Below, piece by piece: positions 34,582-53,069 of a stretch of DNA of 64,000 bases. Numbering within the stretch: the stretch's first letter is position 1; every line of letters begins with the position of its first letter. Position numbers and translations under genes: made by a program. The notes below the pieces were generated by a model. The model did not search any database. It had not been told where the DNA came from and saw only the letters and a program-made list of their open reading frames with translations. Origin of the DNA: Verrucomicrobiota bacterium JB024 (GTDB lineage: Bacteria; Verrucomicrobiota; Verrucomicrobiia; Opitutales; Cerasicoccaceae); NCBI GenBank assembly GCA_030673825.1, contig JAUTCS010000034.1, forward strand, positions 1 through 64,000, given 5' to 3'.

Positions 34582-35607
34582 TCAGGCCAATAAAGCGGCG
34601 AACTCACGTGTGAGCGCGCTCATCAACGGCTCACCGTTCAGGTAACGGCGGCACTCCTCCAGAGCCCACTCGCCCATACGGAAACATTCGCGGCCCGTAG
34701 ACCCGGCAATGTGCGGGGTAATAAACACGTTAGGAAGCTCTAGTAGTTGAGAGTAGCGCGCGTGAGACACATCCGTCGCGTAAAACAAGCTCTCGTCTTG
34801 AATGACATCCAATACCGCCGTCAAATCCTCACGCCTGCGCAGGACATTACACATGGCAACCTCGTCCACAATTGCCCCACGTGAACTGTTGATAAACGTC
34901 GCATATCGGGGCATGGATGCCAGCATGGAGCCGGTAATCATGTTCTCGGTCTCCTTCAGCCAGGGAGCGTGAAGGCTCACGACATCGCATTGCTCAAAAA
35001 GCGCTTCAAGGCTATCGATCCTTTGCACGTTCAACTCCTGAAACAATGCTTCGCTCGCGAATGGATCATAGGCGACAACATCGACATCGTACCGAGTTAG
35101 CATCTCGCAAACAAGGCGTCCAATCGCCCCCAGGGCGATAATGCCGACCGTCGTCCCCCTGTACATACCGGGAATAGCCTCTCTGTCCGTACATAGCTTA
35201 CCGAGCTTGATATTCTGGCAGAGCCTGAACGCATGCTTAAGCGACAGGATAATGAGCGCGCAGGTGTATTCTGCAACCGGGACGGCGTTAGCCTGATAGC
35301 TACTGGTCAAGACAATGCCTCTTTCCCAAAACGCATCGGTCACTACCTTTCGTACGGTGCCAGCTCCATAGAAAAAGGCGCGCAGCCCGGGTAGGCATGT
35401 AAGAATCTCCTCATCCATGATGGGTGCCCCCCATCCGGAAAAGACGATTTCCACGTCTTTAAAATGCTCCGGTCGTGCCAGAATGGTTTCACGGCTGTAA
35501 GGCAGGCCGTCATTATCCGTTATTTCACGGACAGAGGAAACGGCCTCTTCACCATAAATAATGCGGAACTGCTCAGCATCCAAAAGAAATATAGAACGTG
35601 GTTTCAT
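34582..35607 (-). CDS. D-isomer-specific 2-hydroxyacid dehydrogenase, cluster B1
   Basis: 341 residues. NAD-binding motif TVGIIALGAIGRLVCEML (GxGxxG) at about residue 154, catalytic Arg in INSSRGAIVDE (near 240), Glu in VIQDESLF and His in FITPHIAGST (near 299). The substrate-binding N-terminus includes VFSGWGAPIMDEEIL. It reduces or oxidises a 2-hydroxy acid in the cytoplasm. A close paralogue lies at 45141-46160 in cluster B2, with the same domain order and near-identical motifs. Each is downstream of a DUF1961 gene, so a shared function in the same pathway is likely. Confidence 0.9.
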   Translation of the reverse strand: MKPRSIFLLDAEQFRIIYGEEAVSSVREITDNDGLPYSRETILARPEHFKDVEIVFSGWGAPIMDEEILTCLPGLRAFFYGAGTVRKVVTDAFWERGIVLTSSYQANAVPVAEYTCALIILSLKHAFRLCQNIKLGKLCTDREAIPGMYRGTTVGIIALGAIGRLVCEMLTRYDVDVVAYDPFASEALFQELNVQRIDSLEALFEQCDVVSLHAPWLKETENMITGSMLASMPRYATFINSSRGAIVDEVAMCNVLRRREDLTAVLDVIQDESLFYATDVSHARYSQLLELPNVFITPHIAGSTGRECFRMGEWALEECRRYLNGEPLMSALTREFAALLA

Positions 35608-35743
35608 TCCTATGCCAATATATGTGCTTGCAGTTGAGTTCGCATATTCCGCCCCATCTCTCTGGCCGTGCTCTAGTCCCGCTCACGAGTGATAGTTAAC
35701 GATCGCGTCCACCTGTAACATCAATCACATCCCACTGAGCAGG

Positions 35744-36628
35744 TCATTCACTCAGAGGCTCCGCCTGACAGATAGTGATGTTCTTATAAATGCCCGCCCG
35801 TTGGTTCATGTGACGCAGGCCGATGCGGCCTTTATTCAGGTTGGGAACATCCGACAAGTCCCACTGATAGTACCGTTCTTCGTCGGGGTTTTGAACTTTC
35901 ATCAGCAGTTCATTGCCGCGCTTGATCACGGTCACGTGGTGCTGGACGCCCGGTTCAAAAAGCCCTACCGCCGCATAGTCGGGCTTGATTTCCATTTTGT
36001 TAAAACTCCCTTCGAACAGTGAACGCGGGTAGCGGCGAGCCCGTATGTAGGCCGACTCCTTGGTTGCCTTCGGATCGTTATCAAAAGCTGCGAAACTGAT
36101 GTGAAGCAGATTCATGTGGTCGTAATACATCCGCATGTAGGGGACCTGGCGCAGGTCGCTCCACGCTGAGATATCTTCCACATACGGAGCCGGGCCCGCT
36201 CCAGTCGCATAGAGATAGACGATGTTCACGTAGTGATCGATCGTGTCCATCCGGGTGTAGTCGAACTCGAGCTTGAGGTCTCCCTCGAAGCTTTGACGCG
36301 TCCATAACACAGCATGAGAGGCATGATCATCCGCAATGGGTCCGGCAGAATAGTACAGGCCATTCGGCAGGTTCTTCAGAGTTGCCTTGTGCCCATCGAC
36401 AAACCAGCGATCCTGCCAGGACTCCAGGCCGGAATCCACCATGGCTTCTTGCCAGGGAGCTTCCTGCGCAGCCTCGAAGGCAGCGCGGTTATTGTTTTCG
36501 TTCTGCGATGTCGGGGTTGCCATGGTGTTAACAGACAGGCCGCATATCAAAGAGCCGGCAAGCATCAGGGCCCGGACATGAGTGATGGCGAGGCACCTTG
36601 TCGCGCGGGGGAGTTGTTGCTCGGTCAT
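35744..36628 (-). CDS. DUF1961 secreted protein, cluster B1
   Basis: 294 residues. The hydrophobic stretch ALMLAGSLICGLSVNTMA (about 20-38) suggests export. The DUF1961 signature is clear: FVDGHKATLKNLPNGLYYSA, DDHASHAVLWTRQSFEGDL (about 100-118), YLYATGAGPAPYVEDISAW, ESAYIRARRYPRSLFEG and GRIGLRHMNQRAG near the end. The fold is a concanavalin-like beta-jelly roll; function is not established in the literature I know. The paralogue is at 49367-50200. In both loci it accompanies a propeller and a D-2-hydroxyacid dehydrogenase, which suggests an acidic polysaccharide as target. Confidence 0.85.
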   Translation of the reverse strand: MTEQQLPRATRCLAITHVRALMLAGSLICGLSVNTMATPTSQNENNNRAAFEAAQEAPWQEAMVDSGLESWQDRWFVDGHKATLKNLPNGLYYSAGPIADDHASHAVLWTRQSFEGDLKLEFDYTRMDTIDHYVNIVYLYATGAGPAPYVEDISAWSDLRQVPYMRMYYDHMNLLHISFAAFDNDPKATKESAYIRARRYPRSLFEGSFNKMEIKPDYAAVGLFEPGVQHHVTVIKRGNELLMKVQNPDEERYYQWDLSDVPNLNKGRIGLRHMNQRAGIYKNITICQAEPLSE

Positions 36629-36682
36629 GATTACGGTTTGGTTTGTGGTTTCGGGTTAACGATAGACGCGATCTATAATCGC

Positions 36683-38068
36683 TTATTCTTGCGAAACAGG
36701 CAGGCTATCGCCTTCAGCCACCGGTATTGCGGCACTGGAAGTGTCAACGGTCCATACCGGCCAGCTACCGCTATAGTCGTTCTTCTCCTCACCCAACTTG
36801 AGTTGGCTCATGAGGATATCGACCTCGGGGCGGGAGTGGTCGATGAATGCCATCGACCACGTACGGTCGGCACCGTCCGCATAAGGAACGACCTTCTCAA
36901 AGGTCTTTACCCACTCGCCACCCTTTTCCTGTTGGATGTACATCTCCATCGCGGTCTGCCCCTCGGTAGAGAGCAGTAATCGATGGCTGCCATCGGGCAT
37001 TGGCTCAAGGTCCTTGGCCGCGATATCGGCCAACTTGCGGTGCTGCCATGTGTCGCCATCCCAGACAGCCTCCCAGCACTCACTGCGATTATTATAAATG
37101 ACCAGAAGAGAACCATCCGAATACTCGGAGACCAGGATGCGGTTGACCAGCTTCTCGGCCAGGATGGAACCCGTATCCAGTACGGTGCAGTAGTCCAGCA
37201 TTTCGTCCAGATCAATGATCTCTCCCAGGTCCGACCCGTCAGGCGCCTCCCAAGTGCCGCTCTCCGGATAAAAGGTCGCCATGTAAGCGTTACGCGAGCC
37301 CTGGTTGTGCCCGTTGGGGCCGCCCCGCATCACCCAGACGAAATGCACCCGGGCGGGTTGATCACCGTCGGCAGGTTGCACACTCATGTGGTAGGCGTAA
37401 ACCTCATCGATGTGGTCGGGGTCTTTCTGGTCCGAGTCGATCGCATTGATATGATCCGACCATGTCTGGCCGCTATCGTCAGAATAGACATAGCCGAACG
37501 ACCGGTAGGGCCACAGCCGATCACCCGTAACGCTGTAGAAAATATAGACGCGTCCATCCACCGAGAAAATTATCGGATAACAATCATTCCTCGTCTCGAT
37601 CAATTGATGCGACCACTCCCCCTCCATGGAGTGGGGCTCCGGCGCGCGGGCGATCTGCAAATTGTCGTTGTGGTCGGCCCAAGTGATGAGGAGGTGCCCG
37701 TCCGGGGCCATCGCCATATTGGGATAATTGTGGTAATCCCAGGTACCCACATAGTTTAGTTTACAAATCGTCTTTTCCGGTGACCACTGCCCGGTGGCGT
37801 TATCGTAGCTCATCCCCATAACGCTCATCCCGGGCCCATTCCAGCAGATGAATGTTTTGTCCACGACCGGGTCGTAGAGGCCGTAACCATGCGGACGACG
37901 GCAACCATAAGTCGCGTTGGTGGCAATTTTAGTGAACGCCGCGTCCACTTCAGCGGGCGCTTGACCAGATTCGGGAGCCGACACGGCGGCGGGTTCGACG
38001 GGAGCCGCCACGCAAAAAGGGGTCAGCGCCAGCAGGACAAGGCTCCAAAGGGAATATCCAATTTTCAT
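36683..38068 (-). CDS. BNR_4-type beta-propeller secreted protein, cluster B1
   Basis: 461 residues with signal peptide MKIGYSLWSLVLLALTPFCV (about 1-22). The BNR_4 family features are the YGCRRPHGYGLYDPVVDKTF block, DYHNYPNMAMAPDGHLLITW and GYVYSDDSGQTWSDH, an Asp-box-like turn. The family includes uronan/ulvan lyase-like propellers and uncharacterised proteins. A lyase that cuts uronic-acid glycans is the working idea. It lies between PEP-CTERM and DUF1961 genes. No catalytic residues are assigned. Confidence 0.8.
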   Translation of the reverse strand: MKIGYSLWSLVLLALTPFCVAAPVEPAAVSAPESGQAPAEVDAAFTKIATNATYGCRRPHGYGLYDPVVDKTFICWNGPGMSVMGMSYDNATGQWSPEKTICKLNYVGTWDYHNYPNMAMAPDGHLLITWADHNDNLQIARAPEPHSMEGEWSHQLIETRNDCYPIIFSVDGRVYIFYSVTGDRLWPYRSFGYVYSDDSGQTWSDHINAIDSDQKDPDHIDEVYAYHMSVQPADGDQPARVHFVWVMRGGPNGHNQGSRNAYMATFYPESGTWEAPDGSDLGEIIDLDEMLDYCTVLDTGSILAEKLVNRILVSEYSDGSLLVIYNNRSECWEAVWDGDTWQHRKLADIAAKDLEPMPDGSHRLLLSTEGQTAMEMYIQQEKGGEWVKTFEKVVPYADGADRTWSMAFIDHSRPEVDILMSQLKLGEEKNDYSGSWPVWTVDTSSAAIPVAEGDSLPVSQE

Positions 38069-38285
38069 GGTAGAATTCTGTTGATAGTAAATATAATTTT
38101 TCTCACCTGCAAAATCTTCGTCCGCTCAAGCCATCAGGCACATCACAAGCCTTTTCATTGCAAGGTTGCCGGTCTGGCTTACACGGTCTTGGTCATACAA
38201 GCTACGGCCGCAACGCACGTCTACTTTTGTATCAAAATCCAAATACAAACCTATTATATCGCTTCATAAATAGACAGCCCACCCT

Positions 38286-38315: not shown

Positions 38316-38355
38316 AAGAAGCTTCAAGCAAAATATATCCGGAACCCGAGAAGGC

Positions 38356-39225
38356 TCAACTGCGACGACGACGGATCGCCCGTACCGCGCCCAAAGCCAA
38401 AAGCGGAAGGGCAAGCAGAGAGAACATCGACGCGCTAGGCTCGGGAATCTGGTTGTAGGTAATCTCAATGTCGCTCATCGAGAAAGAGCTCATCCCCGCG
38501 GGCGTCCCATAGATGACAAAGGTATCGAACGCAGATGTGATGTCAGTCGTGTCAGTAACGGTGGCCGAGTAGCCCGTGAAGTCGATCATCGTGACCGATA
38601 TCACCATACCGGCGTCTGTGTGTGTCAGCGTCAGGCTCACGTCATAAAAAGTGCCATTGCCAAAAGTCGCTCCCGAGCCGATTTTGCTACCGAGAGTCTC
38701 GTAGCAATCGGAAATGGAGCTAATCAAACTATTCGAAGCCGGGTCAAGGCCTGGCACTCGCTCGTAAACGCTTGCCGCATTGTCGCTATTGATACTCAAA
38801 CCTGTGCAATAACCGGTATAACCGTTGAAGATCGTATTGGCCAGGCCGGCACCATCGGCGCTGATCCGCTCTCCTCCGGAATTGAGGATGCCAATACGGA
38901 GCGCGCTGTTGTTGCTCGCCGGATCGGTGACAGAAACGCTGAAGTTGAAACCGATCGATTCGCCCTCTGCCAAGTTGATCGTACCCGAGTCCGTGAAGTA
39001 GGCCAGGGCATAGCGTTGAGCGTCAGAGGTCAAGTTACCGGTCGTGTCACTAATGCCGCTACCAAATGTGCCGTACCAGGCTGCCGTCTGAGGCAAGTCC
39101 TGGGTCAACCGTTCGCCGGTGGGAAAGTTTTCCGAGAGCAGCGTGGTTGTCGCCGAGGCCATCGAGCAGGCCAACCCGCTCAGGCAGAATGCAAACAAGT
39201 AGGGGGATATGAGCTTCTTATTCAT
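38356..39225 (-). CDS. PEP-CTERM secreted protein, cluster B1
   Basis: 289 residues from MNKKLISPYLFAFCLSGLAC at 39225, a signal peptide ending near ASATTT; the frame open to 39294 adds a non-signal leader. A Ser/Thr-rich beta domain follows. The C-terminus NQIPEPSASMFSLLALPLLA followed by LGAVRAIRRRR is the PEP-CTERM tag (PEP motif, hydrophobic stretch, basic tail). First gene after the LacI regulator in cluster B1. Likely a glycan-binding surface protein processed by an exosortase. Confidence 0.88.
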   Translation of the reverse strand: MNKKLISPYLFAFCLSGLACSMASATTTLLSENFPTGERLTQDLPQTAAWYGTFGSGISDTTGNLTSDAQRYALAYFTDSGTINLAEGESIGFNFSVSVTDPASNNSALRIGILNSGGERISADGAGLANTIFNGYTGYCTGLSINSDNAASVYERVPGLDPASNSLISSISDCYETLGSKIGSGATFGNGTFYDVSLTLTHTDAGMVISVTMIDFTGYSATVTDTTDITSAFDTFVIYGTPAGMSSFSMSDIEITYNQIPEPSASMFSLLALPLLALGAVRAIRRRRS

Positions 39226-39338
39226 AATAGTCGATAGGTATGGGTGGGATATTGATTCAGGAACAAGTATCCACCTTGTGCGGATACTCGGCAATTGATT
39301 CTTAAGTCAAATAGTTGCGCACGCTTAGCCATAAGACG

Positions 39339-40349
39339 CTAAGCTCGTGGGCGAACGCTCAAACCATCGCGAAAAGACCCGGATTCCATGTAGAATCGCG
39401 GAGGGGTCAAAACACCACAGACCTGCTTGTGGATCAGCGAGACGAGAAAATCTATCGTATTAGCACTCAAATGCTCAAAGGTCTCATCGAAGCCAGCCAA
39501 GTCCTTGTTTTTTTTATCGTCATGATGGACAATCCACTGCGAAAACCCAATCTGCTCGGGGACTTTCCAGCCTTTTTCCAGTAAAGCTTCATAATGTGGA
39601 GGATGGCCGATAACCGCATCCAGGCGATGACGACGCACCCACTCGTCAATCTCATCAGCCTTGGCCTGCTCGCGTGTGTAGGGTGGCACATGCTTAAGGC
39701 CGTTTCTTTGTGCATAGAGGAGATAGGCACCGTACTTTTGTCCGTCCGTTCGTTTATCCAACGAGTCCGGCAAACAGAATCCGACCCGGCGATATCCCCG
39801 CGCCTGCAACTCCTCCAGATGGATCAGGGTATTCTGGAAATGGTGCGTGCTGGCACGGTTGAAGTGCGGTTCCTCCACCGAATAGCCAATGGCCACAACC
39901 GGCCATCTATCCCATTCACCCGACAAACGGGTTTGCCGGGTGAATGGACCAATGATCACGCCACGCAGCCCTTGGTTCCACCAGATGGACTGCAGACGCT
40001 CCATGCTGATGTCCAAACGCCCGAGGTTGTATTCGATTAAATTATAGCCGAGTTCGGAGGCTCGTTGGCTGGCATTTTCGTACACCATCTTTCCAAAGGG
40101 TACCTGCGGCCCCATGTCAGTCAGATAGGCCAGGCCGCTTCGCACATCCTGCGGGCGTACAGCATTGCGGTAAGAGCTCAGCGCACTCAGTCCCGCATCC
40201 GGAACATACCCCATCTCTTTAGCCAGCGCCTGGATTTCCTCACGCTTTTGCTGCGATATCCGGCTGTAGTTACGTAAGGCCAGTGAGACCGTTGAAAGGT
40301 GTACCCCGGCTCGCTCGGCTACTTGTTTTAATGTCACTCGCCGCTTCAT
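39339..40349 (-). CDS. LacI-family transcriptional regulator, cluster B1
   Basis: 336 residues from the ATG at 40349 (a TTG at 40355 is also possible). HTH at residues about 5-25: VTLKQVAERAGVHLSTVSLA, then the hinge. The remainder is a periplasmic-binding-protein-like domain with GLAYLTDMGPQVPFGKMVYE and VVAIGYSVEEP. It likely represses cluster B1 until a sugar binds. Two palindromes (see 40349-40383) lie right at its own start. Cluster B1 genes begin 113 nt downstream of the regulator. Confidence 0.9.
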   Translation of the reverse strand: MKRRVTLKQVAERAGVHLSTVSLALRNYSRISQQKREEIQALAKEMGYVPDAGLSALSSYRNAVRPQDVRSGLAYLTDMGPQVPFGKMVYENASQRASELGYNLIEYNLGRLDISMERLQSIWWNQGLRGVIIGPFTRQTRLSGEWDRWPVVAIGYSVEEPHFNRASTHHFQNTLIHLEELQARGYRRVGFCLPDSLDKRTDGQKYGAYLLYAQRNGLKHVPPYTREQAKADEIDEWVRRHRLDAVIGHPPHYEALLEKGWKVPEQIGFSQWIVHHDDKKNKDLAGFDETFEHLSANTIDFLVSLIHKQVCGVLTPPRFYMESGSFRDGLSVRPRA

Positions 40350-40383
40350 GCGCAACTAATTGAATTACTAAGAGATTGCGCAA
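40349..40383. promoter_or_regulatory. candidate LacI operators
   Basis: TGCGCA (40349-40354) and TTGCGCAA (40376-40383) are palindromes with the central CG typical of LacI-family sites, about 28 bp centre to centre. TGCGCAA and TTGCGCA also form an inverted pair. They overlap the start codon of the LacI gene, which fits autorepression, and could serve the divergent gene too. Confidence 0.5.
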
Positions 40384-40615
40384 AGCCATGACAACTTCTA
40401 AATTACAGCTTTTAAATTCAGACACAGCTGACACAGCCGATATTTTGCGGTGCCCCCCTACCCTTTCCTGGTGCAACGCAGTAAGAACGTCACGAGGAAC
40501 TACAGATGAATCCCGTGTAAATGAGAACCCCTCTAAAGGCATACTCACCCCAATCCAGCAAGCCCGTGTTGAGAAGATAAAAATCTGTCCCAAGCCTGAT
40601 TTTGGCTCTCCCATC

Positions 40616-43600
40616 ATGCCCTGTCGCTTTCCCCCAAAACGTTCGCAAACCGACAACCATTCACGGCAGCCGGGTTTCGCTCTCATCTTGTCGCTGACTT
40701 TGATGGCCTTCCTTCTGCTCCTGCTGGTCAGCCTGAGCACGCTGATACGGGTGGAAACAGCGACCACAGAACGCAGCAACTACCAAATCGAGGCTGAGCA
40801 AAACGCCCTTCTGGGGATCAAGACCGCACTCGGTCAACTGCAGAAGCTCGCCGGACCGGACCAGCGCGTAACAGCGCCGGCAAATATCGATGAAAATACC
40901 GCCAACGGGAAGCAGTATTGGACAGGAGTATGGAGATCCGGCACCACAGGCGGCGCGACGGCAAACGACTTTGAAGGCTGGCTCGTCTCCCTGCCCGACG
41001 GTGTCGGAAACACCCTCGACCAGCGCGAGGCGGCGGATGTGAATTGGAGCGACTTTAACCCTGAGTGGGTGACGCTGGTCGGTGCCGGCACCGTCGAAGG
41101 TGGACAACAGGCAGATTACGTTGTCGCGGGGAAGGTCAGCATCGATCAGACCGGGCACTACGCTTACTGGACGGGCGAGGAAAACACCAAGGCGCGCGTG
41201 AACCTCTCAACCCCGGCCAACGTCGCAGCCCTCGATTCGGACCTGATGGCACCTCGCTACACGGGTTTCACCAGCGTGGACACCGGTTTCGGCTCACTAA
41301 CAGCAAGCGACACCAACCTGGAGAAGTTGACCAGTCTGAGCGATCTGAACAACCTCACCGGCGTCGCCCATGGCCTCGATCAGCTTTACTTTCACGACCT
41401 GTCCACCCATGGTCGGGGCGTACAGGCTGACGTCAAAAACGGCGGCTTAAAAAAAGACCTCACTCACTTGCTGGAAAGCGACACAGCCTTTACGAGATAC
41501 TTCGGTCTCGGACCGACCGACTCCCCCCGCGGGATCTGGCCGGAGCCCTACACCTTTCACGACGCGGACGAAAGCTACAACTTTCCCTACGGCGCTCCCA
41601 ACTGGGGCATCCTGGCCTCCTATTACCGCCTTTACGAGGACATAAGCAACGGTGCCATCGCTCCCCGCGCACCTTACGAGCAACCCAAGTCCGCGACACA
41701 GAACAATTATCATGGCTCGGGAGAAATCTACCAATACAACCAGCCGGTACACGCCGTTGTTTCGATGTTCCGCCTGGCCCTTGCCTTGGAATACCGCCGG
41801 GTAGATAAAACCGATAGCGACGGCAACCCCGTCAGCACGCCCAACCCCGACGGCAGCAGCAGCCAGGTTTACATTTACCGACCCATTCTCCACATCAAGC
41901 CGCTCATTGCCCTCTACAACCCCTACGACATCGCACTCGTCTCCAATCAATACGACATCAACTGGGGCTTCATGCCCACCATCACGATCACCGTCAACGG
42001 CGAGGATGTCGTCTTCAACCTGCAGGAGGTCCTTCCCGAGTCGCCGGACTACGGGTCCATGTTCCGCTGGAGCATCTCGCAGGACACCGACCTTCAGCCT
42101 GGAGAAACCCGCTACTACGCGCTCAACCAGGCCTACGAAATGAGCAACTCCGTCTCGAACTACGACTTCGCTCAGATGGAGGCAGCCTGGCAGGAGGACG
42201 GAGCCTACCTGATCGACCTCACGCAGTGGCGGGTGGGGAATGCGAATGTCAGCTCGGATAAACGCTTTATCGTGCGAGCCGATACCGACGGGAACACCGT
42301 CTCACTCTACTCGACCAAATCCACCCGCAACAAAGACGAAGACAAGAAGAGCCCGCGCTTCGGTCTCACCGACGCCGAGGTAGACAAACTCATCATCGAA
42401 ACCTCCGACGTGCCGCCCCCGGTTGAAGTCGTTGTGTACTACGGCAACGTTGAGGTCGGCGAAGTCACGGAGACGCCCATGGGCACCCTCGCCCTCAGGT
42501 TCAGAGACCCCAACGGCACGAATACTGCCGCCCAACTCATTGACTCTTATTATCAGGAGACAAACAATAACCGCTATCCGGATTCGGCTGTCTGGGGCCA
42601 ACAGATATTGAACCTCGTCGATAACCCTTCTGATATAGATGCCGTCGCTTTCAGCCTGCGCACCACCACTCAGACCGACGAGCCGCACCGGCAGCTGATC
42701 GACGCCAACCCGCGTGCCCTCATGCTCTCGGGGAAGATAGACGGCTTTCGATCCGGAGACGGACTGACGACCTTCTCCGGGTGGACGATGACCGAATATG
42801 AAGCGGGCGAGAGCCTCGAACCGCAGATTGCGGACTTGACCCGCTACACCGGATTTTGGGGCAATACCCGTGAATTGAACGTCGACAACAGCATGGCCGC
42901 CTCGGCGAGCTCCGTCATGCTCTACCATGTGCCGCGCCAGCCCTTGATCTCGCTGGGGACATTTCAACACGCCGGACTCGGACGGTACAGCTACCAACCG
43001 GCCTACATCTTTGGCAACAGCTACGCTACTTCAAAAATCCCTTCGACGGCGACCCGCAGCACCTACGAGGAATACACCCGAACCCGCTACGCATACGACT
43101 GGTCCTACGCCATCAACGATGCGGTCTGGGACAGCTATTACTTTTCCACAGTCCCCCAGGACGACGACGAGGCCGAGGCGTTGATCGGTGAAATCGAAGC
43201 CAAGACCGCAACCTTGCCCAACCCGCGCTTCTCCCTCTACAGCCCCGAAGGCTACGACCTCGACAACGCATCTCTGGCCAACTTGTTAACCGACGACAGT
43301 GTCGAGGACACCGCGGAGATCACCGCGGCATTCCAGCTGACCGATGGTATGTTCAACGTCAATTCGACGTCGGTCGAGGCCTGGAAGGCCTTCCTCGGCA
43401 GCAACTCTCATCTCGATGTCCCGATTTATAACCCCGCCACTGGGCTCTCCAACACCACGGTGAATGAAGCCGAGGCAGTTTTCTTCCGCTCACCCCTACC
43501 TTACGACAACGGCTTCTTGACCCAAGAATCCGGACAAAACTTCTGGAATGCCTATCGCAAGCTGACCGATGTGGAACTGACGGAACTGGCCACCGCGATC

Positions 43601-44146: not shown

Positions 44147-44908
44147 ATGCACCTAACCATCTCGCTTCAGAGCCTCTTCGTACGCCGCGCGACATTCGTT
44201 CTTTTATTTCTGGCAATACTCGGACCACTGGCACGAGCCCAGGATGAGGAGAGCATTTCCGTGTCCTTCTATCCGCTCTCCTGGGAGGGATCGATCAAGG
44301 ACCTCATTTATTTCGACAAGGGGCAACGCGTACCGCTTTTCATCCCCAATGGTGCCCCCGGCTCCGAGCAAAGTTATGTCGGCTCTCCTCAAATGGGTTT
44401 TTATACGGAGCGAACCGGCCCCGAAGGGGAAATGCTCTACGATCTCCAGGCCACTGTCACCATCCCACACTCAGTAAAACGACTGCTCCTGGTCTTCATC
44501 CCCACCTCTGCGGTCAGCAACCCGCAACAAAAGTACAAAGTCCTCGCCCTGCCCGACCCCGGCTCCAACTCAAACTTTGCTGCGAACGCCTTCAACTTCT
44601 ACAATCTCACAGGCACAAACATGGCCATCCGCGTTGGAGATAACCAATTTCAGCTCTCCCCGGGACGCAGCCACGTTGTAGCCCTCACCGACAACGATCT
44701 GAAGAACGTCGATGTACAAATGGCCACGAGCACACAGGAAACCACGCAGTGGTCAATGATCTATCAGTCTCGCTGGGCGTCGCCGAAAAAACGCCGAGCC
44801 TGGGTATTCATCTACGGTGAGCCAGGCACCACCCCCGGCATTCGCAAATACTACCAGTTGATGCAGACTGCTGACACCCGACGTACCCAGTCGAGGTTAC
44901 AAGAATAA
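44147..44908 (+). CDS. secreted companion of the Verru_Chthon-like protein
   Basis: 253 residues with signal peptide FVLLFLAILGPLARAQD (cleavage near residue 31). The rest is a beta-rich domain: SFYPLSWEGSIKDLIYFD, then KGQRVPLFIPNGAPGSEQSY, then RLLLVFIPTSAVSNPQQKY. The start is 27 nt after the previous stop, so it is cotranscribed. No cassette B/C/D signature is seen. It probably works with the large protein outside the cell. Confidence 0.6.
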   Translation: MHLTISLQSLFVRRATFVLLFLAILGPLARAQDEESISVSFYPLSWEGSIKDLIYFDKGQRVPLFIPNGAPGSEQSYVGSPQMGFYTERTGPEGEMLYDLQATVTIPHSVKRLLLVFIPTSAVSNPQQKYKVLALPDPGSNSNFAANAFNFYNLTGTNMAIRVGDNQFQLSPGRSHVVALTDNDLKNVDVQMATSTQETTQWSMIYQSRWASPKKRRAWVFIYGEPGTTPGIRKYYQLMQTADTRRTQSRLQE

Positions 44909-45140: not shown

Positions 45141-46160
45141 TCAGGCCAGCGATTGCGTGGTCGCTTGGTTCAGGGCGCAGAGCTGTGGCAGTCCGCACAG
45201 GTAGCGGCGGCACTCCTCAACAGCCGTCATCCCCATACGGTGGCTCTCCCGCCCCTTTGATCCTGCTATGTGTGGTGTCATAAACACATTGGGCAAGCGG
45301 GCCAGCGGATGAGCATGGAAAACGGTCTCGTCGATCAGCACATCGAGCACCGCGAACAAGTCCGGACGCTCCTGGAGCACTTCCAGCAGTTCTCTCTCGT
45401 TGACAACGGCACCACGCGAAGTGTTGATAAACGTAGCTCCAGGCGGCATCAGGCGAAGCAGTTTCCCCGTGACCATGCCCTCGGTTTCCTTCAGCCACGG
45501 GGCGTGCAGGCTGATCACCTCACACCGCATGAACAGCTCATCCAGCCGGTCAACCCGTTCGACCGATAGCTCGGAAAAGACCGATTCCTCTGCGTACGGA
45601 TCATATGCAAGCACATCGACCTCGTATCCCGCCAGCATCCGGCACACCAGCCGGCCGATGGCCCCGAGCGAAACTATCCCCACCCTGGAGCCGCGGTACA
45701 CGCCGGGGATCGCATCCTTGTCATGCATGGGAACGCACATCCCCGTCCCAAGCCTGCGGGAAAGATGGAAAGCCTGCTTGAGCGCGAAGACGACGGCGGA
45801 AACGGTGTACTGTGCCACCGGCACGGCGTTGACCTGGTACGCGCTCGTCAGTAGAATATTTCTCCCCCAAAAGGCCTCCGTGGTGAGAGCCCGCACGCTG
45901 CCGGCTCCATAAAAAAGTGCCTCCAGCGAGGGCAGGGCCGCAAGCAGTTCCTCGTCCATCGTGGGAGCGCCCCAGCCGGAAAAAACCAGGCGTACGTCCG
46001 CAAAATCCTCCGGAGTTCGCAACAGAGCCTCTCGGTTATACACCCGTCCGTCATTGCGCGTCAACCGCTGCACCTCAGCGATGGCCTCAGGGCTGTAGAG
46101 GGCAGGAAAGCGTTCCTCACTCAGGAGGAAAATGGACCGGTAAGGGAGGTGAGAAGGCAT
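45141..46160 (-). CDS. D-isomer-specific 2-hydroxyacid dehydrogenase, cluster B2
   Basis: 339 residues, paralogue of 34582-35607. Same motifs: VFSGWGAPTMDEELL in the substrate half, VGIVSLGAIGRLVCRML (GxGxxG, near 158), catalytic Arg in INTSRGAVVNE, Glu in VLIDETVF and His in FMTPHIAGSKGRESHRMG. Acts in the cytoplasm on a 2-hydroxy or 2-keto acid with NAD(P). The last gene of cluster B2, 93 nt after the double-AraC gene. The two copies share the core residues throughout, so they probably use similar substrates. Confidence 0.9.
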   Translation of the reverse strand: MPSHLPYRSIFLLSEERFPALYSPEAIAEVQRLTRNDGRVYNREALLRTPEDFADVRLVFSGWGAPTMDEELLAALPSLEALFYGAGSVRALTTEAFWGRNILLTSAYQVNAVPVAQYTVSAVVFALKQAFHLSRRLGTGMCVPMHDKDAIPGVYRGSRVGIVSLGAIGRLVCRMLAGYEVDVLAYDPYAEESVFSELSVERVDRLDELFMRCEVISLHAPWLKETEGMVTGKLLRLMPPGATFINTSRGAVVNERELLEVLQERPDLFAVLDVLIDETVFHAHPLARLPNVFMTPHIAGSKGRESHRMGMTAVEECRRYLCGLPQLCALNQATTQSLA

Positions 46161-46253: not shown

Positions 46254-47924
46254 TCAGTGGTAGCGATACTGCAAGGGCGTCATGCCATAGACATGCTTGA
46301 AGGCACGGGTAAATGAGCTGGTGTGGGAATAGTTAGCCCCGGCGGAGATCTCGTCGATCGGCAGGCGACTGTGCTGGAGTTTCTGGGCCGCCCTTGCCAG
46401 GCGCTGCTCACGCATGATACTGGCTGGCGGATTCCCCCAGACCTTCATCAGCTTGCGGGTGAAGTGAGCGCGGGAATACCCGGACTCGGAAGCGTATTGG
46501 GTCAGTGTCGAGATATCCTGGTGGATGGTCGGGCAGCGATAGTCATAGAGGTTGGGCATGTCCAACCGGCGATACTCGCCCCGCCGCAACAGTTCGTACC
46601 AGGACAGCAGCCATTCGTAGGCTTGGCGGGAGCTTTGCGCACTGGGCTGGTTGCGTTTTTTGCTCCAGGACTCCATCCATCTGAGCGCGAGCTGCACGGG
46701 CGGACTGTCGAGATCGATCTCCAGGAAAAATAGCTGCCCCGCCGTGAGGGCCTCGATCGCTTCATAAGAGATAGCGCCGAACGTCCGCAGCGAGATCCGC
46801 TCCCAAACGATGCCGGGCAAGGCCCGCACGGTGCCCCGTATCGGCGAGGGCTGGAAGCATACGCGCCCCGGTAACATGTCATACTCCACCCCGTCGATGA
46901 TCATCTGCGCTTTCCCCGAAAGGGTGACCACCCAGTTATGAACCGCCGGGTAACTGCAAATGGATAGGTCGTGAACGTGGGGGTACTCGTGACGGTACAA
47001 ACCCGCCACACAGTGAAAATAGGGCTCCACTGGGGAGAGTGTCGGCTTGAGCTGGCGCGGCTTGCAGATACGCGGTACCGCGCGCGAGGAACGCGGTGTC
47101 ACCCGGTCCATCTGGAAGGTTTTCGCCGTGCGCAGGGCTTCCAGGGGCTTTCCGGTGGCCTGCCTCAGCGCGCTGGAGAGGCTGGTAGCGTTGGCGTAGC
47201 CGCATTCATAGGCGATTTCAGCCAGCGTAAGCTCTCCCTCCCGCAACAGCTCACAGGCCATTTCCAGACGCAGGGAGCGCAGCATGTAACCGCAGCTCAG
47301 GCCGTACCGTTCCTGGAACCGTTTGTCCAGATATGCAGTACTACACCCCAGGGTAGACGCCATGGCCTGCACCGAAAACCGGCTTTCCTGCGCTGTCGTC
47401 TTAAGCAGATGGTTGTCCCCGTCCAGGATCCGCTGGATGTTCTTGCGCTGGCGCTTCCCCTCCTGATGCAGTTGCAGCAGCAGGTGGAAGAGTCTCCGAC
47501 TTTGCTCGACACCATCCAACTCCGTCCAGCCAGACAGGTCGCGCAGAAGCTTGCGGCTGGCCTCCCCCGAGGACAAGCGATAGCGCAGGCCAAACTCCTG
47601 ATGCAGAAACTTGAAATAACTCGTCGCGATCCCCTCCCCCAAGACGATTTCGTAAAAACTCGCCTTCCCATGAGGCGTGGCGATGGCGTAATTCGACCGG
47701 GCCGAGGCGGGCACCAGCAGCACGACGTCGGGGGCGAGCACATGCTTGAGCTGGTTATAAGACTCCCCGATGTGGAGGATGCCCGAGCAGCCCACCAGCA
47801 GGCTGCACGGGGTTTTGCGTCCCCCGAGCGTATAGGGCTGGCGGGGGGTGGCCTTACTCACCTCATGGGTGTAGATCCCATGGATGCAGAAAAGAATCTT
47901 CGAGCGATTGATCAGACTATCCAT
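46254..47924 (-). CDS. double AraC protein: two fused AraC-family regulators
   Basis: 556 residues, about twice the usual AraC length. First unit: sensor (1-170) and HTH domain at about 180-265 (FSVQAMASTLGCSTAYLDKR and LTLAEIAYECGYANATSLS). A basic linker follows (266-300). Second unit: cupin-like sensor (about 300-460, with HVHDLSICSYPAVHNWVVTL) and HTH at about 470-556 (ISTLTQYASESGYSRAHFTR and PIDEISAGANYSHTSSFTRA). No stop separates the units. A fused regulator could bind two operators at once or respond to two ligands. It lies within cluster B2 between sulfatase and dehydrogenase and likely controls the cluster. Confidence 0.9.
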   Translation of the reverse strand: MDSLINRSKILFCIHGIYTHEVSKATPRQPYTLGGRKTPCSLLVGCSGILHIGESYNQLKHVLAPDVVLLVPASARSNYAIATPHGKASFYEIVLGEGIATSYFKFLHQEFGLRYRLSSGEASRKLLRDLSGWTELDGVEQSRRLFHLLLQLHQEGKRQRKNIQRILDGDNHLLKTTAQESRFSVQAMASTLGCSTAYLDKRFQERYGLSCGYMLRSLRLEMACELLREGELTLAEIAYECGYANATSLSSALRQATGKPLEALRTAKTFQMDRVTPRSSRAVPRICKPRQLKPTLSPVEPYFHCVAGLYRHEYPHVHDLSICSYPAVHNWVVTLSGKAQMIIDGVEYDMLPGRVCFQPSPIRGTVRALPGIVWERISLRTFGAISYEAIEALTAGQLFFLEIDLDSPPVQLALRWMESWSKKRNQPSAQSSRQAYEWLLSWYELLRRGEYRRLDMPNLYDYRCPTIHQDISTLTQYASESGYSRAHFTRKLMKVWGNPPASIMREQRLARAAQKLQHSRLPIDEISAGANYSHTSSFTRAFKHVYGMTPLQYRYH

Positions 47925-47936
47925 CTGGCTGGATCG

Positions 47937-49370
47937 TTATGGCTTCACTGTTGAGGCAGCCTGCTCGTAGTAATCCGGGGCCACCGGTCCGCCGTACTCC
48001 CGGAAACTGGCCTTGGCGGCACGAAACATGGGATCGACTACGGGCTTGAGCGAACGATAGGGGTCGCCGGTGGCCGCGAGATAGTCCTCCAACAGGCGGC
48101 GATGGCTCGCGAGCTCCGCCTCCATCTCTGGAACCATCGCCAGGTTGCGCATCTCGCCCGGATCGTTCCGCAGATCGTAGAGTTCCTCCCGGTTGTCCTC
48201 CAGGTAGTGCGTGTATTTGTAGCGGTCGGTACGCACCATCCGGCCGGGCTCAACCGTGTAGCCCCACTCGGTATGCCATTGGGCAAACACCGCCTCGGGC
48301 ACGCTGGCGCGAGAGGTGCCGGCGGTCAGGTCCGCATACAGGGAGCGCCCCTGCACCCCGGCAGGGATGACCGCCCCGGCAAAGTCGCACAGCGTGGGCA
48401 GCAGATCCAGCAGGGTGCACAGCCCCCCCCTAACCCCGGCGCCCAGGCCAGCCCCGCTGAAGACCAGCGGCACATGCATGGTCTCTTCGTAAAAGCTGGT
48501 GTGCTTAGTCACCATCCAGCGCCCGCCCATACTGTCGCCGTGGTCGGCGAAAAAGACGACCAGCGTGTTCGCTTCATCGTCGCGTTGCCGAAGGGCCCGC
48601 AGGACGTGACCGATCTCCGCATCGACCAGACTCAGGTAATGGTGGTAAGCATGCAGGTAGTGCCGGATTTTCAGTTCGTCCCATCCGGCCGCCTGTGCCT
48701 GGCGGCGGTGGGCGCTCGGCAGATACTGGATTGGCAAGGGCCGGCGGGCCAGCTCATCCTCGGACAGGCAAAGGTTGTCCGGCGGGGGCGGCAGGTCCGC
48801 GAAAACCTCCCGAAGCGGAAGCCGCCCAGCGTTCTCGCCCACCCACCCGCAGATGTTGTGCGGGTTGTTAAAGTCGGTCACGAGACAATAGGGCGAGTCG
48901 CCCCGGTAGGACGACAGAAACTCCACCGCGCGCCGCCGGGTGTAGCGGTCCATCCGGGTGTCGCGGTTGTGCGTCAGGCTGGGGTGCTCCGGCCGGGTTT
49001 CACTTTCCCGTAAGGGTTCGCACGTAAAGCCACGTAGCGAGCCCGCGTCATGGCGTTTGCCGATGTGCACAGTAGTATAGCCAGCCTCAGCCAATAGCGA
49101 ACCGAGCGTGGCCGTACTCTCGCCGACCACCCCGTTAGGGCAGTTTTTGCCGTTGGAGATCACCCCCGTCTGATGCGGGTAGCGGCTCGTCCAGAAGGAC
49201 GCGCGCGAGGGCAGGCAAAGGGGGCAGTTTGAGTAGGCGCTTTCGCAACGGATGCCCGAGGCGATGAGCGCGTCGATATTGGGGGTGTGCGCGTAGGTGT
49301 TTCCCCAGGCGGGCAGGGCCTGGGCCGAAAGCTGGTCGCAAATGACGACAACGATGTTGGGACGTTTCAT
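47937..49370 (-). CDS. sulfatase (formylglycine-dependent), cluster B2
   Basis: 477 residues from ATG 49370, which overlaps the stop of the DUF1961 gene (ATGA); an open frame to 49433 would add 21. The sulfatase signature C-x-P-S-R is NCPLCLPSRASF with Cys52, the residue converted to formylglycine, which then attacks the sulfate ester. Metal ligands are Asp12 (VICDQLS) and the later FFADHGDSM. A C-terminal subdomain has RMVRTDRYKYTHYLEDNREE and LYDLRNDPGEMRNLA, the usual end of the S1 family. No signal peptide is evident, so it acts in the cytoplasm or is exported by another route. It removes sulfate from glycan fragments. Confidence 0.93.
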   Translation of the reverse strand: MKRPNIVVVICDQLSAQALPAWGNTYAHTPNIDALIASGIRCESAYSNCPLCLPSRASFWTSRYPHQTGVISNGKNCPNGVVGESTATLGSLLAEAGYTTVHIGKRHDAGSLRGFTCEPLRESETRPEHPSLTHNRDTRMDRYTRRRAVEFLSSYRGDSPYCLVTDFNNPHNICGWVGENAGRLPLREVFADLPPPPDNLCLSEDELARRPLPIQYLPSAHRRQAQAAGWDELKIRHYLHAYHHYLSLVDAEIGHVLRALRQRDDEANTLVVFFADHGDSMGGRWMVTKHTSFYEETMHVPLVFSGAGLGAGVRGGLCTLLDLLPTLCDFAGAVIPAGVQGRSLYADLTAGTSRASVPEAVFAQWHTEWGYTVEPGRMVRTDRYKYTHYLEDNREELYDLRNDPGEMRNLAMVPEMEAELASHRRLLEDYLAATGDPYRSLKPVVDPMFRAAKASFREYGGPVAPDYYEQAASTVKP

Positions 49371-50200
49371 GGTTTCGACGGCTCCTCCAATGCAAAGACC
49401 TGAATATCCTTGTAGAGCGCGGCGCGCTGCCACATGTGGCGCAGGCCGATCCTGCCGGCCCGCACCTCCGGCACCTGGCGGAGGTCCCAGTAGTAAAGGC
49501 GATCCTCGTCGGGGTTGGTCACATTCATGTACATGTCATCGCCACGGCGAATGACGGTCACATGGTGCGGGACACCGGGAGCGAAAAGCCCGACCGCGCT
49601 GAAGTCCGGCTCCAGCGCCATCTTTGAAAACTGTCCGCCAAACAGCGAACGCGGGTAGCGCCGCGCCCGGATGTAGGCGTTCTCCTTCCCCTGCCCAGTC
49701 TTGTTATCGAAGGCCGCAAAGCTGATATGCAGCAGGTTCATGTGGTCGAAGTAGGTGCTCATGGCCGGAATCTGCCTCAGCTCGTTCCACTCCGAGATGT
49801 CTTCGACGTAGGGGGCGGGACCCGCGCCCGTCGCGTACAAGTACACGATGCACACGGCTCTGTACAGCGTGTCCATGCCCGTATAGTCGAATTCCAGCCG
49901 GAGGTCGCCGGCAAAACTGTCCCGCGTCCACAGCACAGCGTGTGAAGCATCGTCGTCCGCGATGGGACCGGCGGCGAAGAACATCCCTTCGTCCGTATTT
50001 TCAACCGTGGCCTTGCGCCCATCCAGCATCCACCGCTCGCTCCAGTCGTCCTGGCAGCCGTCGTGGAAGACTTCGCGCCAGTCGGCCTTCAGCAGTTCAT
50101 TGTAGGCGGGGCGATACTCTTCCTGAGCTTGCATAGGTCGGAGGCATAGTAACAGCGCGCCCATCAGGACGGCAAGGATATGAGGGTGGCGTAAAGACAT
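49367..50200 (-). CDS. DUF1961 secreted protein, cluster B2
   Basis: 277 residues; signal peptide MSLRHPHILAVLMGALLLCL then RPMQAQ. Paralogue of 35744-36628 with the same motif series: MLDGRKATVENTDEGMFFAA, DASHAVLWTRDSFAGDL, YLYATGAGPAPYVEDIS, ENAYIRARRYPRSLFGG and GRIGLRHMWQRAALYKD. The N-terminus HDGCQDDWSERWMLDG gives the usual opening. Overlaps the sulfatase start by 4 nt, so coupled translation. Likely a jelly-roll protein on acidic polysaccharides; enzymatic function not shown. Confidence 0.88.
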   Translation of the reverse strand: MSLRHPHILAVLMGALLLCLRPMQAQEEYRPAYNELLKADWREVFHDGCQDDWSERWMLDGRKATVENTDEGMFFAAGPIADDDASHAVLWTRDSFAGDLRLEFDYTGMDTLYRAVCIVYLYATGAGPAPYVEDISEWNELRQIPAMSTYFDHMNLLHISFAAFDNKTGQGKENAYIRARRYPRSLFGGQFSKMALEPDFSAVGLFAPGVPHHVTVIRRGDDMYMNVTNPDEDRLYYWDLRQVPEVRAGRIGLRHMWQRAALYKDIQVFALEEPSKP

Positions 50201-50203
50201 GGG

Positions 50204-51484
50204 TCAAGGTTCGACGATGGCTACGTAGGTGCCGTTGCGCCCGTCGGCGGTCGGCATGTGGAAGTACAAACGTTTACCGTCACGGGAGAACGCCGGGTTT
50301 ACGTGAAAACGCTTTTCCCAGACAACATCCTGCGGGCTGAAGGTCGCGAGGGTCAAACGCGGCTCGGAGTCGCCCGCGTGATAATAGTGCAGCACGACCG
50401 GATCGCTCCCGTAGTCCGTTTCGGAGGCGAAGCCCTGCCGATCAGGAGAGATCGCGAAATGGTTGCCCGGGATCTCCGCCAAGGTCTCGATAAACGTGCC
50501 ATCGACCGTGTAGCGGACAGGCAGCAGCTCATGGCCCGGTCGACGGTCATGGCCCGCCATGGTGTCGTCGTCGTAGAAACAGAAGTGCAGCAGCGGATTG
50601 TCCAGGAAGTATACTTGCTGTCCGTCGCTCGTCATCACTACGCGCAGGCGACTGGCAGTCTGCTTGCCGATATCCAGGCGAAAGGCGATGTGCGAGCCTT
50701 CGGGCGAATACATCAAGTGAAAGAAATGCCAGCCCTCGTCCGGATAAAGTCCCTTGGCATCCAGAGCTGCCGACGGGATGGAGGGCTTGAGCGCATTGAG
50801 GGCTTCCAGCGTGAGGATGCTCCGGATTTCGCCCGTGCGCAGATCCAGCTCGTAGATCCCGGCCGGCCTCCAGGCGGTGCCGTCGGCCCGCTTGTCCGTG
50901 GCGAAGAGTATCTTCTGCTCGTGGACATCGTGGCTGACGGCGAGAGCGCCCGGGATCGGTGCGAAACGGTCTTCGCCGGTCTCGGCATCCACGACATGCA
51001 GCTCGCACGGCGGCTCCGCGTCGTAGGGTGTCTGATAGATCAGGGTGTGGTCGTTCCCCCAGAAGACTTGTGACCCGTTGTGTGGGCGAACCGGCCCCAT
51101 GTTCCGGACTTTGCGATGATGAGTCAGGTCGGTGTCGCAGACCCAGAGCTCGCCGGGGCGTCCGTCCTTGGGGTCCTCCGGCTCCTGCGTGAAGCGCACA
51201 TAGGCGATCCTGCTGCCGTCAGGACTCTCCGGGCTGGTATTGTAGATGCCGAAGCTGCTGGAGTGCTCCTGCGGGCCGACTGCGAACACCTCACCGACGG
51301 CCGGGTCCGCGGGCACTGCGACCACGTCGGCGCGATCTTGTGCCGCGCCGGTTTCGGCGACGGGAGCAGAGGACTCCCGCACACACCCCGCAAACAAACC
51401 ACCCAACACGGCTGCGCCCGCCGCAAATACAGCGAAACGGGCAGGAACATTAAAGAGAGGGATACACCACATACGATTCTTCAT
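50204..51484 (-). CDS. beta-propeller lipoprotein resembling oligogalacturonate lyase (PL22-like)
   Basis: 426 residues. Lipoprotein signal: VFAAGAAVLGGLFAGC with Cys at about 34, then a linker rich in Ala/Val/Pro. The core is a WD40/TolB-like propeller: SFGIYNTSPESPDGSRIAYV (about 77-96), LWVCDTDLTHHRKVRN, HNGSQVFWGND, LMYSPEGSHIAFRLD, NPAFSRDGKRLYFH. The HSSSFGIYNTSPESPDG start is as in oligogalacturonate lyases and similar proteins. Those cut uronate oligosaccharides by beta-elimination. Activity cannot be confirmed from the sequence alone. Anchored to a membrane, it would work on oligosaccharides outside the cytoplasm. 3 nt before DUF1961, so coupled. Confidence 0.75.
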   Translation of the reverse strand: MKNRMWCIPLFNVPARFAVFAAGAAVLGGLFAGCVRESSAPVAETGAAQDRADVVAVPADPAVGEVFAVGPQEHSSSFGIYNTSPESPDGSRIAYVRFTQEPEDPKDGRPGELWVCDTDLTHHRKVRNMGPVRPHNGSQVFWGNDHTLIYQTPYDAEPPCELHVVDAETGEDRFAPIPGALAVSHDVHEQKILFATDKRADGTAWRPAGIYELDLRTGEIRSILTLEALNALKPSIPSAALDAKGLYPDEGWHFFHLMYSPEGSHIAFRLDIGKQTASRLRVVMTSDGQQVYFLDNPLLHFCFYDDDTMAGHDRRPGHELLPVRYTVDGTFIETLAEIPGNHFAISPDRQGFASETDYGSDPVVLHYYHAGDSEPRLTLATFSPQDVVWEKRFHVNPAFSRDGKRLYFHMPTADGRNGTYVAIVEP

Positions 51485-51493
51485 GAGTGCGGA

Positions 51494-52300
51494 TTAAACG
51501 CGCTGGATCATCGCCCGGAGATGACGACGGCGGACGTGAGCCACGGCGAGGGCCAGTGTCGCGGCCAGCAACAGGCTGGAAGTCTCCGCCTCGGGGATGG
51601 CCGTGATCGTCAGGTTATCGATGCCCATGCCACTGGAATCGGCGACCTGTGCATTACCCCAGCGGATCCACAGGTATTCTCCCGCCTGCCAGTTCAGGTT
51701 GGTCAGAGTAATGGTAAAGCCTTGCTGGTTCGCTTCCATGTTTCCGTTCATACTGCCGGCGCTTCCAGTCGACTGCGCCGTGACGGTAGCCGCTGCAATA
51801 CCGGTGTAGCCGCTAACCTCCGAGCCGATCATGTCGCCGCTGTCGGCGGTCACCAGATAAGAGCCTGTCCACGTGGTTGCCTCGACATTCCGCCGCCACT
51901 GCTCGACTGTATAGGTCAGCGTGATGGACTCGATCGCCGACCCACTGGTGTTGAGCAGTTGCACGCCAAAGTATGCCGTCTCCGGCGAAAATCCGTCCTT
52001 GTTAAAAGTCCCGAGGGCACGGTCGGTAGAGTCCGTCTGCCCCCAGTCGTAGATACCTTTACCGTAGTTGCTCTGCTGGCCGCTGCTGGCACGCCCCGAC
52101 CCCTCGCGGTTGGTGTACCACCCGAGAAGGGTGTCATTGTTAGTGAACACGATGGGGTCTGTGACGTTGGTGTTCGTGGGCAGGGTATCAAAATCCTGGA
52201 AATAGCTGCCGCCGAACTCGACTTGGGCGCTGAGGCTGCTCAAGCCGAGAAGCGCGCTCAGCAGAAAAGGGAATCGGATGTTTTTTTGAATAGGGGTCAT
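51494..52300 (-). CDS. PEP-CTERM-like secreted protein, cluster B2
   Basis: 268 residues; signal peptide MTPIQKNIRFPFLLSALLGL then SSLSAQ. The domain is Ser/Thr/Asn-rich beta, with FQDFDTLPTNTNVTDPIVF at the start, as in family members of uncharacterised lectin-like surface proteins, and a GIDNLTITAIPEAETSSLLL tail followed by AATLALAVAHVRRRHLR. The tag has PEA in place of PEP but keeps the hydrophobic run and basic end. It lies 9 nt before the propeller lipoprotein gene. Confidence 0.78.
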   Translation of the reverse strand: MTPIQKNIRFPFLLSALLGLSSLSAQVEFGGSYFQDFDTLPTNTNVTDPIVFTNNDTLLGWYTNREGSGRASSGQQSNYGKGIYDWGQTDSTDRALGTFNKDGFSPETAYFGVQLLNTSGSAIESITLTYTVEQWRRNVEATTWTGSYLVTADSGDMIGSEVSGYTGIAAATVTAQSTGSAGSMNGNMEANQQGFTITLTNLNWQAGEYLWIRWGNAQVADSSGMGIDNLTITAIPEAETSSLLLAATLALAVAHVRRRHLRAMIQRV

Positions 52301-52340
52301 GATAGGCGTTCTTGAGGTTCGTTTTCAGGGTTAAAAGCTG

Positions 52341-53069
52341 TCAGTCCCACTTCCATAGGTCGGGACGAGCCGCAGCCGCGGGACTGCCGTAGGTCAGCGT
52401 GGCTTCGTCGATGAACTCCACATGCCCGTCTACAAAGACAAAAGCTCCCGCGCTCTCGTTTTGATGGTAGAGTCCCGGCTGACACCAGGCACCAACAGGA
52501 TTACCAATGCTGTAGACGTAGTCGGAACTGCCGATGCTCATATCACGGCTACCGATGAGGATAGTGTTTCCGGGGTTGGGCACGACCGCGAGATAGCCGT
52601 TCCACCCGTTCCAACTATTATTGCGCGGGCAGATAAAAACATTGAGCCCAAGCGAGTTGGAGGTGGCCTCCGGAGCCGCGAAGTCCCGTAGCGGCGTGTC
52701 CTCGCTGTTGCGTAGATACTTCTTCCACTGATAGGTGCTCAAGTCTCTGTCGGCAAAAATGTAGGGCCCGATTTGCACCTGCCAGGACTGAGGCGTTTCG
52801 CCGGACCGAAGTTCGTCCTCCGGAGTCCGGAAGCCGCGCGGCAGCCGGTTACCGTTGTCCTGAGCGTAAAGCATCATGCCGTTCCAGGCCATTTTCAGGG
52901 TGTTGACCGTTTGAGTAGTGGCCGCACGTTCGCGCATATTCCCTACGGCTGGGATGATGATGGCGGTCAGCATCGCAATGACGCTGATGACAGCCAGCAG
53001 TTCAATCAGGCTGAAACCGCCAACTCTAGCGGGCGGAAAACGTCTTAAAATCCTTCGATCAATCAACAT
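52341..53069 (-). CDS. prepilin-type H-X-DG protein, cluster B2
   Basis: 242 residues from MLIDRRILRR at 53069 (another ATG at 53093). Methylation motif GGFSLIELLAVISVIAML near residue 18, then the N-terminal helix with NMRERAATTQTVNTLKMAWN. The C-terminal part HQNESAGAFVFVDGHVEFID has the His-x-DG form, but with eleven residues between His and Asp-Gly, two more than in the other two copies. First gene of cluster B2. The stop is 40 nt before the PEP-CTERM gene. Confidence 0.85.
   Translation of the reverse strand: MLIDRRILRRFPPARVGGFSLIELLAVISVIAMLTAIIIPAVGNMRERAATTQTVNTLKMAWNGMMLYAQDNGNRLPRGFRTPEDELRSGETPQSWQVQIGPYIFADRDLSTYQWKKYLRNSEDTPLRDFAAPEATSNSLGLNVFICPRNNSWNGWNGYLAVVPNPGNTILIGSRDMSIGSSDYVYSIGNPVGAWCQPGLYHQNESAGAFVFVDGHVEFIDEATLTYGSPAAAARPDLWKWD

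Follow-up and report, generated by a model that had tools for sequence, protein, structure and literature searches.

Two gene clusters in the genome of Verrucomicrobiota bacterium JB024 raise the question of whether they are copies of one catabolic cassette and of which gene the DUF1961 protein in each is really partnered with. The clusters, here called B1 and B2, lie in the 64,000 nucleotides of contig JAUTCS010000034.1 (assembly GCA_030673825.1) that were analyzed, hereafter the window, and both encode a PEP-CTERM-type protein, a beta-propeller, a DUF1961-like (YesU-like) protein and a D-2-hydroxyacid dehydrogenase. A previous sequence-only reading had taken them for two paralogous cassettes with the same gene set, in which DUF1961 and the dehydrogenase were expected to recur together. 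In the current study, the partnership found to recur is that of a lyase-like propeller with a YesU-like protein, not that of DUF1961 with the dehydrogenase. B1 and B2 are probably independently assembled polysaccharide-degradation operons in one island of carbohydrate-active enzyme (CAZyme) genes, which reuse a propeller and YesU-like module and carry the dehydrogenase as an optional downstream enzyme.

Open reading frames (ORFs) and Pfam matches confirmed the genes named earlier at their places and in the same relative order, together with the LacI regulator of B1, the double AraC regulator of B2, and the sulfatase and prepilin-type protein said to be present in B2. The proposed likeness of two of the gene pairs also held on alignment: the DUF1961-like proteins of B1 and B2 are 58% identical (BLAST, E 3e-120) and the dehydrogenases 57% (E 2e-141), which, judged by sequence, is far beyond chance. 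No BLAST similarity was found between the two propellers or between the two PEP-CTERM proteins, and the propeller families differ, since that of B1 belongs to BNR_4 and that of B2 matches the general PD40 repeat only and has an oligogalacturonate-lyase-like fold. Going by these alignments, homology between the clusters is limited to two of the four classes; the claim of one gene set is right for the DUF1961-like proteins and the dehydrogenases, and for the non-homologous propellers and PEP-CTERM proteins it holds only at the level of the broad class, not of the family. In the DUF1961 tree, the two copies are not sisters: that of B1 groups with a protein from another family's genome (G071; support 100/99) and that of B2 with proteins of genomes G033 and G049 (93/88). 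The dehydrogenase tree is poorly resolved as to whether the B1 and B2 copies are sisters.

The other genes also have their relatives elsewhere. B2 is matched gene for gene on contig C120 of Coraliomargarita sp. SDUM461004 (G033), which belongs to the same order as the source bacterium (PEP-CTERM protein 57%, propeller 57%, DUF1961 64%, sulfatase 64%), with no dehydrogenase within the stretch read there. A closer relative of B2, absent from the earlier account, is contig C83 of the source genome, which holds a prepilin-type protein, an oligogalacturonate-lyase-like (polysaccharide lyase family 22, PL22) propeller, a LacI gene, a canonical DUF1961 and a sulfatase (39% to B2 for the propeller, 61% for the sulfatase). 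B1 resembles C11 of G033 (LacI 60%, PEP-CTERM protein 40%, BNR_4 propeller 62%), where the DUF1961 slot is taken by a DUF6250 protein whose match to the DUF1961 profile is weak. Further relatives of its propeller, at 63-69%, were found in G020, G033 and contig C19; the protein nearest to its DUF1961 is that of G071 (71%). A single-sequence scan of genome contigs gave two relatives only. Because the nearest relatives of each cluster sit elsewhere, B1 and B2 are not copies of one block, and a duplicated cassette was rejected on this ground as well as on the two unrelated classes and the non-sister DUF1961 copies. The suggestion that the clusters attack differently decorated forms of one polysaccharide fared no better: the propellers are of different families, and nothing indicates a common substrate. 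As a separate observation, locus L184 of genome G070 (9393-13079) encodes a 1228-amino-acid (aa) protein in which two stretches resembling the B1 PEP-CTERM protein are fused to a BNR_4 propeller, and its gene adjoins a second BNR_4 gene, a LacI gene and a dehydrogenase.

Concerning the dehydrogenase, both window copies lie far above the PF02826 cut-off of 25.1 bits, and a third close copy (59%), likewise new to this analysis, was found on contig C112 of the source genome beside glycoside hydrolase and sulfatase genes, with no DUF1961 gene within the neighborhood read. The SRG, LDVxxDE, PHIAGS and YDP motifs, which comprise the catalytic Arg, Glu and His and the Asp of the nicotinamide adenine dinucleotide (NAD) type, were present in all three copies, with Ala or Ser as the first Gly of GxGxxG. 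This dehydrogenase group (E up to 1e-60) occurs in 51 of the 373 genomes of the order. Its co-occurrence with DUF1961 in other genomes, on which the earlier proposal had been set to stand or fall, is not above chance: no dehydrogenase was found in 28 neighborhoods (469 kb) read around this DUF1961 branch in other genomes, for which uniform gene placement would give 1.1, and this DUF1961 branch appeared in none of 19 dehydrogenase neighborhoods. The pairing is therefore not conserved and was rejected outside the source genome. The neighborhoods of canonical DUF1961 genes (n = 40, 744 kb) held three dehydrogenases, one of them distant, and the background, counted over about 93 Mb of 20 genomes, is 222 such dehydrogenases, or about 2.4 per Mb. 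The genes next to the dehydrogenases encode mainly LacI regulators, xylose-isomerase-like proteins and gluconolactonase-like proteins.

The propellers gave the opposite picture. Among 46 BNR_4 stretches in 20 genomes, five BNR_4/DUF1961 pairs lie within 2 kb, namely that of B1, single pairs in G024 and G251, and two pairs in G361 formed by one DUF1961 gene with a BNR_4 gene on either side; the four pairs outside the source genome, in three genomes, compare with 0.09 expected if genes are placed uniformly. The PL22-like propeller is rare (6/373 genomes); its gene abuts that of DUF1961 in B2 and in G033, and on contig C83 it is found two genes from DUF1961, on the other side of the LacI gene. 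In G104 and G129, canonical DUF1961 genes are abutted by more distant relatives of this propeller. Since the two kinds of gene recur together above chance in other genomes, the earlier idea that DUF1961 has a role beside lyase-like propellers is credible.

A model of the B2 propeller (predicted local distance difference test score, pLDDT, 78) found its best fold matches in the PL22 oligogalacturonate lyases 3pe7 and 3c5m (Z 27.1; root-mean-square deviation, rmsd, 3.8 and 3.6), the best match outside PL22 having a Z of 22.8. Unlike those enzymes, it shows only about 16% identity, with partial sequence alignments to 3pe7, has a lipoprotein-like leader and gave no match to PF14583 (PL22) at E 0.1; a distant relative in G104 reaches 22.6 of the 30 bits on that model. 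The B1 propeller clearly belongs to BNR_4 (PF15892), but its matches to characterized relatives are weak (16.6 bits to the BT3686 model, E 0.039 to 5mum).

The DUF1961-like proteins of the window both miss the Pfam cut-off for PF09224 (25 bits), so the DUF1961 label, as first given, does not hold by that measure; it holds through close homologues that score 37-49 bits (in G361, G179, G200, G024, G041, G339, G323, G210 and G028). On this sequence comparison, they are a divergent YesU-like branch and not strict Pfam members. The branch is present in 21 of the 373 genomes and, within the source genome, only at B1 and B2. The B2 model shares the whole-domain fold of YesU of Bacillus subtilis (1oq1; rmsd 2.9 over 213 residues), followed by animal and plant lectins (Z 16.9), and a profile of 25 relatives matches YesU at E 8e-10. 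Eleven residues (H87, W91, D134, W138, R142, Y150, S160, R178, R180, R181 and R254) are invariant over 25 sequences down to 31% identity; several of them also occur in YesU, with which the His-Trp, Asp, His-x-Ser and G-x-I-G-x-R-x-M positions are conserved. The window proteins differ from YesU in their low identity (17%), in their hydrophobic N-terminal leaders, YesU being reported without a signal peptide (PMC6120924), and in adjoining propellers, whereas the YesU gene neighbors the RhgT esterase. YesU bound fucosylated glycans on an array and was reported as a glycan-binding protein (PMC6120924).

In some proteins, the DUF1961 domain is joined to another domain, a GDSL esterase on contig C87 and in G071 and a polysaccharide lyase domain in G032. 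Some canonical DUF1961 domains also exceed the cut-off of a 3-keto-disaccharide hydrolase model over the stretch that matches DUF1961. The GDSL fusions (L021:6470-8521 on contig C87 and L154:6747-8843 in G071) combine the esterase, a lectin-like domain and a canonical DUF1961 in one protein, an echo of the adjoining rhgT and yesU genes of B. subtilis. The ulvan-type dehydratase P29_PDnc was considered as a model for DUF1961 and set aside, as the text of its source paper gave no fold or domain for comparison.

Among 107 proteins encoded next to this DUF1961 branch were 11 sulfatases, 4 fucosidases, 3 BNR_4 propellers and 2 rhamnosidases. The B2 sulfatase is of the S1 type, being over the PF00884 cut-off and carrying the C-x-P-S-R motif. 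A sulfatase lies within about 3 kb of DUF1961 at 9 of 26 loci, compared with about 4 expected by a rough hand sum for sulfatase-rich genomes, which only weakly supports it as a conserved partner. The CAZymes of the island upstream of B2 and the fucosidases and rhamnosidases near DUF1961 elsewhere suggest that the substrate may be a sulfated glycan that contains uronate and is rich in fucose or rhamnose, which agrees with work on Verrucomicrobiota (PMC8857213). The sulfated-polysaccharide loci described there are similar in their clustered sulfatases, fucosidases, SASA-type esterases and other glycoside hydrolases; unlike the present clusters, they are described in a main text in which a term search gave no PEP-CTERM, DUF or lyase, and the propeller and YesU-like pair falls outside that account.

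The homologies, gene order, folds and the recurrence of the propeller with the YesU-like protein are supported directly, and the reaction steps of the following scheme are inferred. The hub of each operon would be a probably secreted beta-propeller with a polysaccharide lyase fold or family, paired with a probably secreted, lectin-fold YesU/DUF1961 protein. The propeller may cleave an acidic oligosaccharide that contains uronate, with beta-elimination as the likeliest mechanism, and the YesU-like protein may bind and present, or modify, that glycan, with the B2 sulfatase stripping sulfate. The PEP-CTERM and prepilin-like proteins would be part of a cell-surface apparatus. The dehydrogenase, a presumably cytosolic enzyme that joins such cassettes only sometimes, may act on a 2-keto or 2-hydroxy acid from sugar breakdown. 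B1 would answer to its LacI regulator and B2 to its AraC regulator. Judged by their leaders, the propellers and DUF1961 proteins look exported, the B2 propeller having a lipobox-like FAGC; the dehydrogenases have no signal peptide and look cytosolic.

Several points weigh against this interpretation. Two of the three close dehydrogenases adjoin the source genome's only two DUF1961 proteins of this branch, a genuine double co-occurrence that is unlikely to have arisen at random; the two instances share one island, however, with about 10 kb between them. Relatives of the dehydrogenase also adjoin propeller, PEP-CTERM or LacI genes at locus L123 of G129 and at L184 of G070, which makes the enzyme an occasional guest of such cassettes, not one wholly foreign to them. 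As sugar-degradation genes cluster, the true expectation for the propeller pairs is higher than uniform placement implies, and their excess is likely overstated; sulfatases are so common in several genomes that their nearness to DUF1961 proves little. Moreover, the leaders were read by eye and not by a prediction program, and the lyase chemistry suggested for the propellers is inferred from family and fold only.

If one cassette had been duplicated, with DUF1961 and the dehydrogenase working as a functional pair on variously decorated forms of a single polysaccharide, this would account for the presence of both genes in B1 and B2, for their shared relative order and 57-58% identity, and for the confinement of this DUF1961 branch to these two loci of the source genome. 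This explanation is nevertheless very improbable, and as a general rule largely refuted, since the pairing is missing from all 28 DUF1961 and all 19 dehydrogenase neighborhoods elsewhere, each window DUF1961 groups with copies of other genomes, the propellers and PEP-CTERM proteins of B1 and B2 are unrelated, and the third dehydrogenase has no DUF1961 in the stretch read. The widely varying neighbors of DUF1961 and the abundance of sulfatases (more than 250 candidates in some genomes) could instead point to loose CAZyme islands, where every pairing, including propeller with DUF1961, is mere clustering of sugar-degradation genes. This we consider unlikely, because in genomes of several families propeller and DUF1961 genes are immediate neighbors, several of them overlapping or tens of bases apart, and one DUF1961 gene sits between two BNR_4 genes.

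The preferred explanation, independently assembled operons that reuse the propeller and YesU-like module, has a variant that it does not exclude, in which DUF1961 would have a catalytic role of its own, for instance as a lectin/glucanase-fold hydrolase or lyase that works on the propeller product, with the invariant His, Asp, Trp and Arg as active site. The invariance of these residues over 25 sequences, several being kept in YesU, and the 3-keto-disaccharide hydrolase matches speak for it; the report of YesU as a glycan-binding protein (PMC6120924), the resemblance of the esterase and lyase fusions to binding modules, and the lectins as the closest folds after YesU speak against it, although fold alone shows no function. 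On balance, this variant is quite possible, if somewhat short of an even chance. Rather more doubtful is its extension, by which the propeller and YesU-like pair would be a two-component enzyme unit and DUF1961, as catalyst on acidic oligosaccharides, an unrecognized family of carbohydrate-active enzymes found in several lineages and in B. subtilis.

By ORF reading of the window, each cluster lies entirely on the minus strand, and most neighboring genes are 3 to 136 bases apart, short gaps that make B1 and B2 compatible with operons (Table 1). The likelier start of the B2 sulfatase, at 49370, overlaps the stop of the DUF1961 gene. The two plus-strand genes between the clusters gave no Pfam or NCBIfam match; the larger protein carries a prepilin-like hydrophobic stretch, and the pair recurs by similar cassettes on contigs C112 and C87 and at C11 of G033 (54% and 48%). 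Near the end of B1, at about 33850-34460 on the plus strand, lies the remnant of a SASA-type esterase broken over two frames. Upstream of B2 (54125-63992, minus strand) are genes for GH2, a SASA esterase, a prepilin, GH39, GDSL, a major facilitator superfamily protein and, at the window end, GH95.

Table 1. Genes of clusters B1 and B2, each in order of transcription, and the gene pair between them (window positions).
Feature	Position	Strand	Evidence
B1 LacI-type regulator	39339..40355	-	PF00356 48.3 bits; 60% to LacI of G033 C11 cassette
B1 PEP-CTERM-type secreted protein	38356..39294	-	C-terminal IPEPSASMF...RRRRS; 40% to same-position gene of G033 C11
B1 BNR_4 beta-propeller, hydrophobic N-terminus	36683..38068	-	PF15892 53.4 bits, cut-off 27.3
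B1 DUF1961-like (YesU-like) protein	35744..36628	-	58% to B2 copy, 71% to G071; PF09224 17.3 bits, below cut-off
B1 D-2-hydroxyacid dehydrogenase	34582..35607	-	PF02826 136.6 bits; R/E/H catalytic motifs present
B2 prepilin-type protein	52341..53093	-	PF07963; GspG-like N-terminus
B2 PEP-CTERM-type protein	51494..52300	-	57% to same-position gene of G033 C120; weak PEP-CTERM models
B2 oligogalacturonate-lyase-like beta-propeller, lipobox-like Cys at N-terminus	50204..51484	-	PD40 31.4 bits; fold 3pe7 Z 27.1
B2 DUF1961-like (YesU-like) protein, Sec-type N-terminus	49367..50200	-	PF09224 19.3 bits, below cut-off; model pLDDT 90; 1oq1 (YesU) Z 23.5
B2 sulfatase	47937..49433	-	PF00884 127.4 bits; CLPSR motif; 64% in G033, 61% in contig C83
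B2 double AraC-type regulator	46254..47924	-	two HTH_18 stretches, 123.1 bits
B2 D-2-hydroxyacid dehydrogenase	45141..46160	-	PF02826 140.9 bits; 57% to B1 copy
Gene pair between B1 and B2	40376-44119 (1247 aa) and 44147-44908 (253 aa)	+	unannotated

Taken as a whole, the arrangement is a real but ordinary set of known gene kinds, and what is useful in it is the recurring propeller and YesU-like pair. Given the negative pairing result, the dehydrogenase is unfit as a guide to DUF1961 function. To our knowledge, no cellular role has been assigned to YesU/DUF1961 proteins apart from glycan binding in vitro; the adjacency to propellers, together with the fusions to esterases and to a lyase domain, provides a concrete substrate context for this family.

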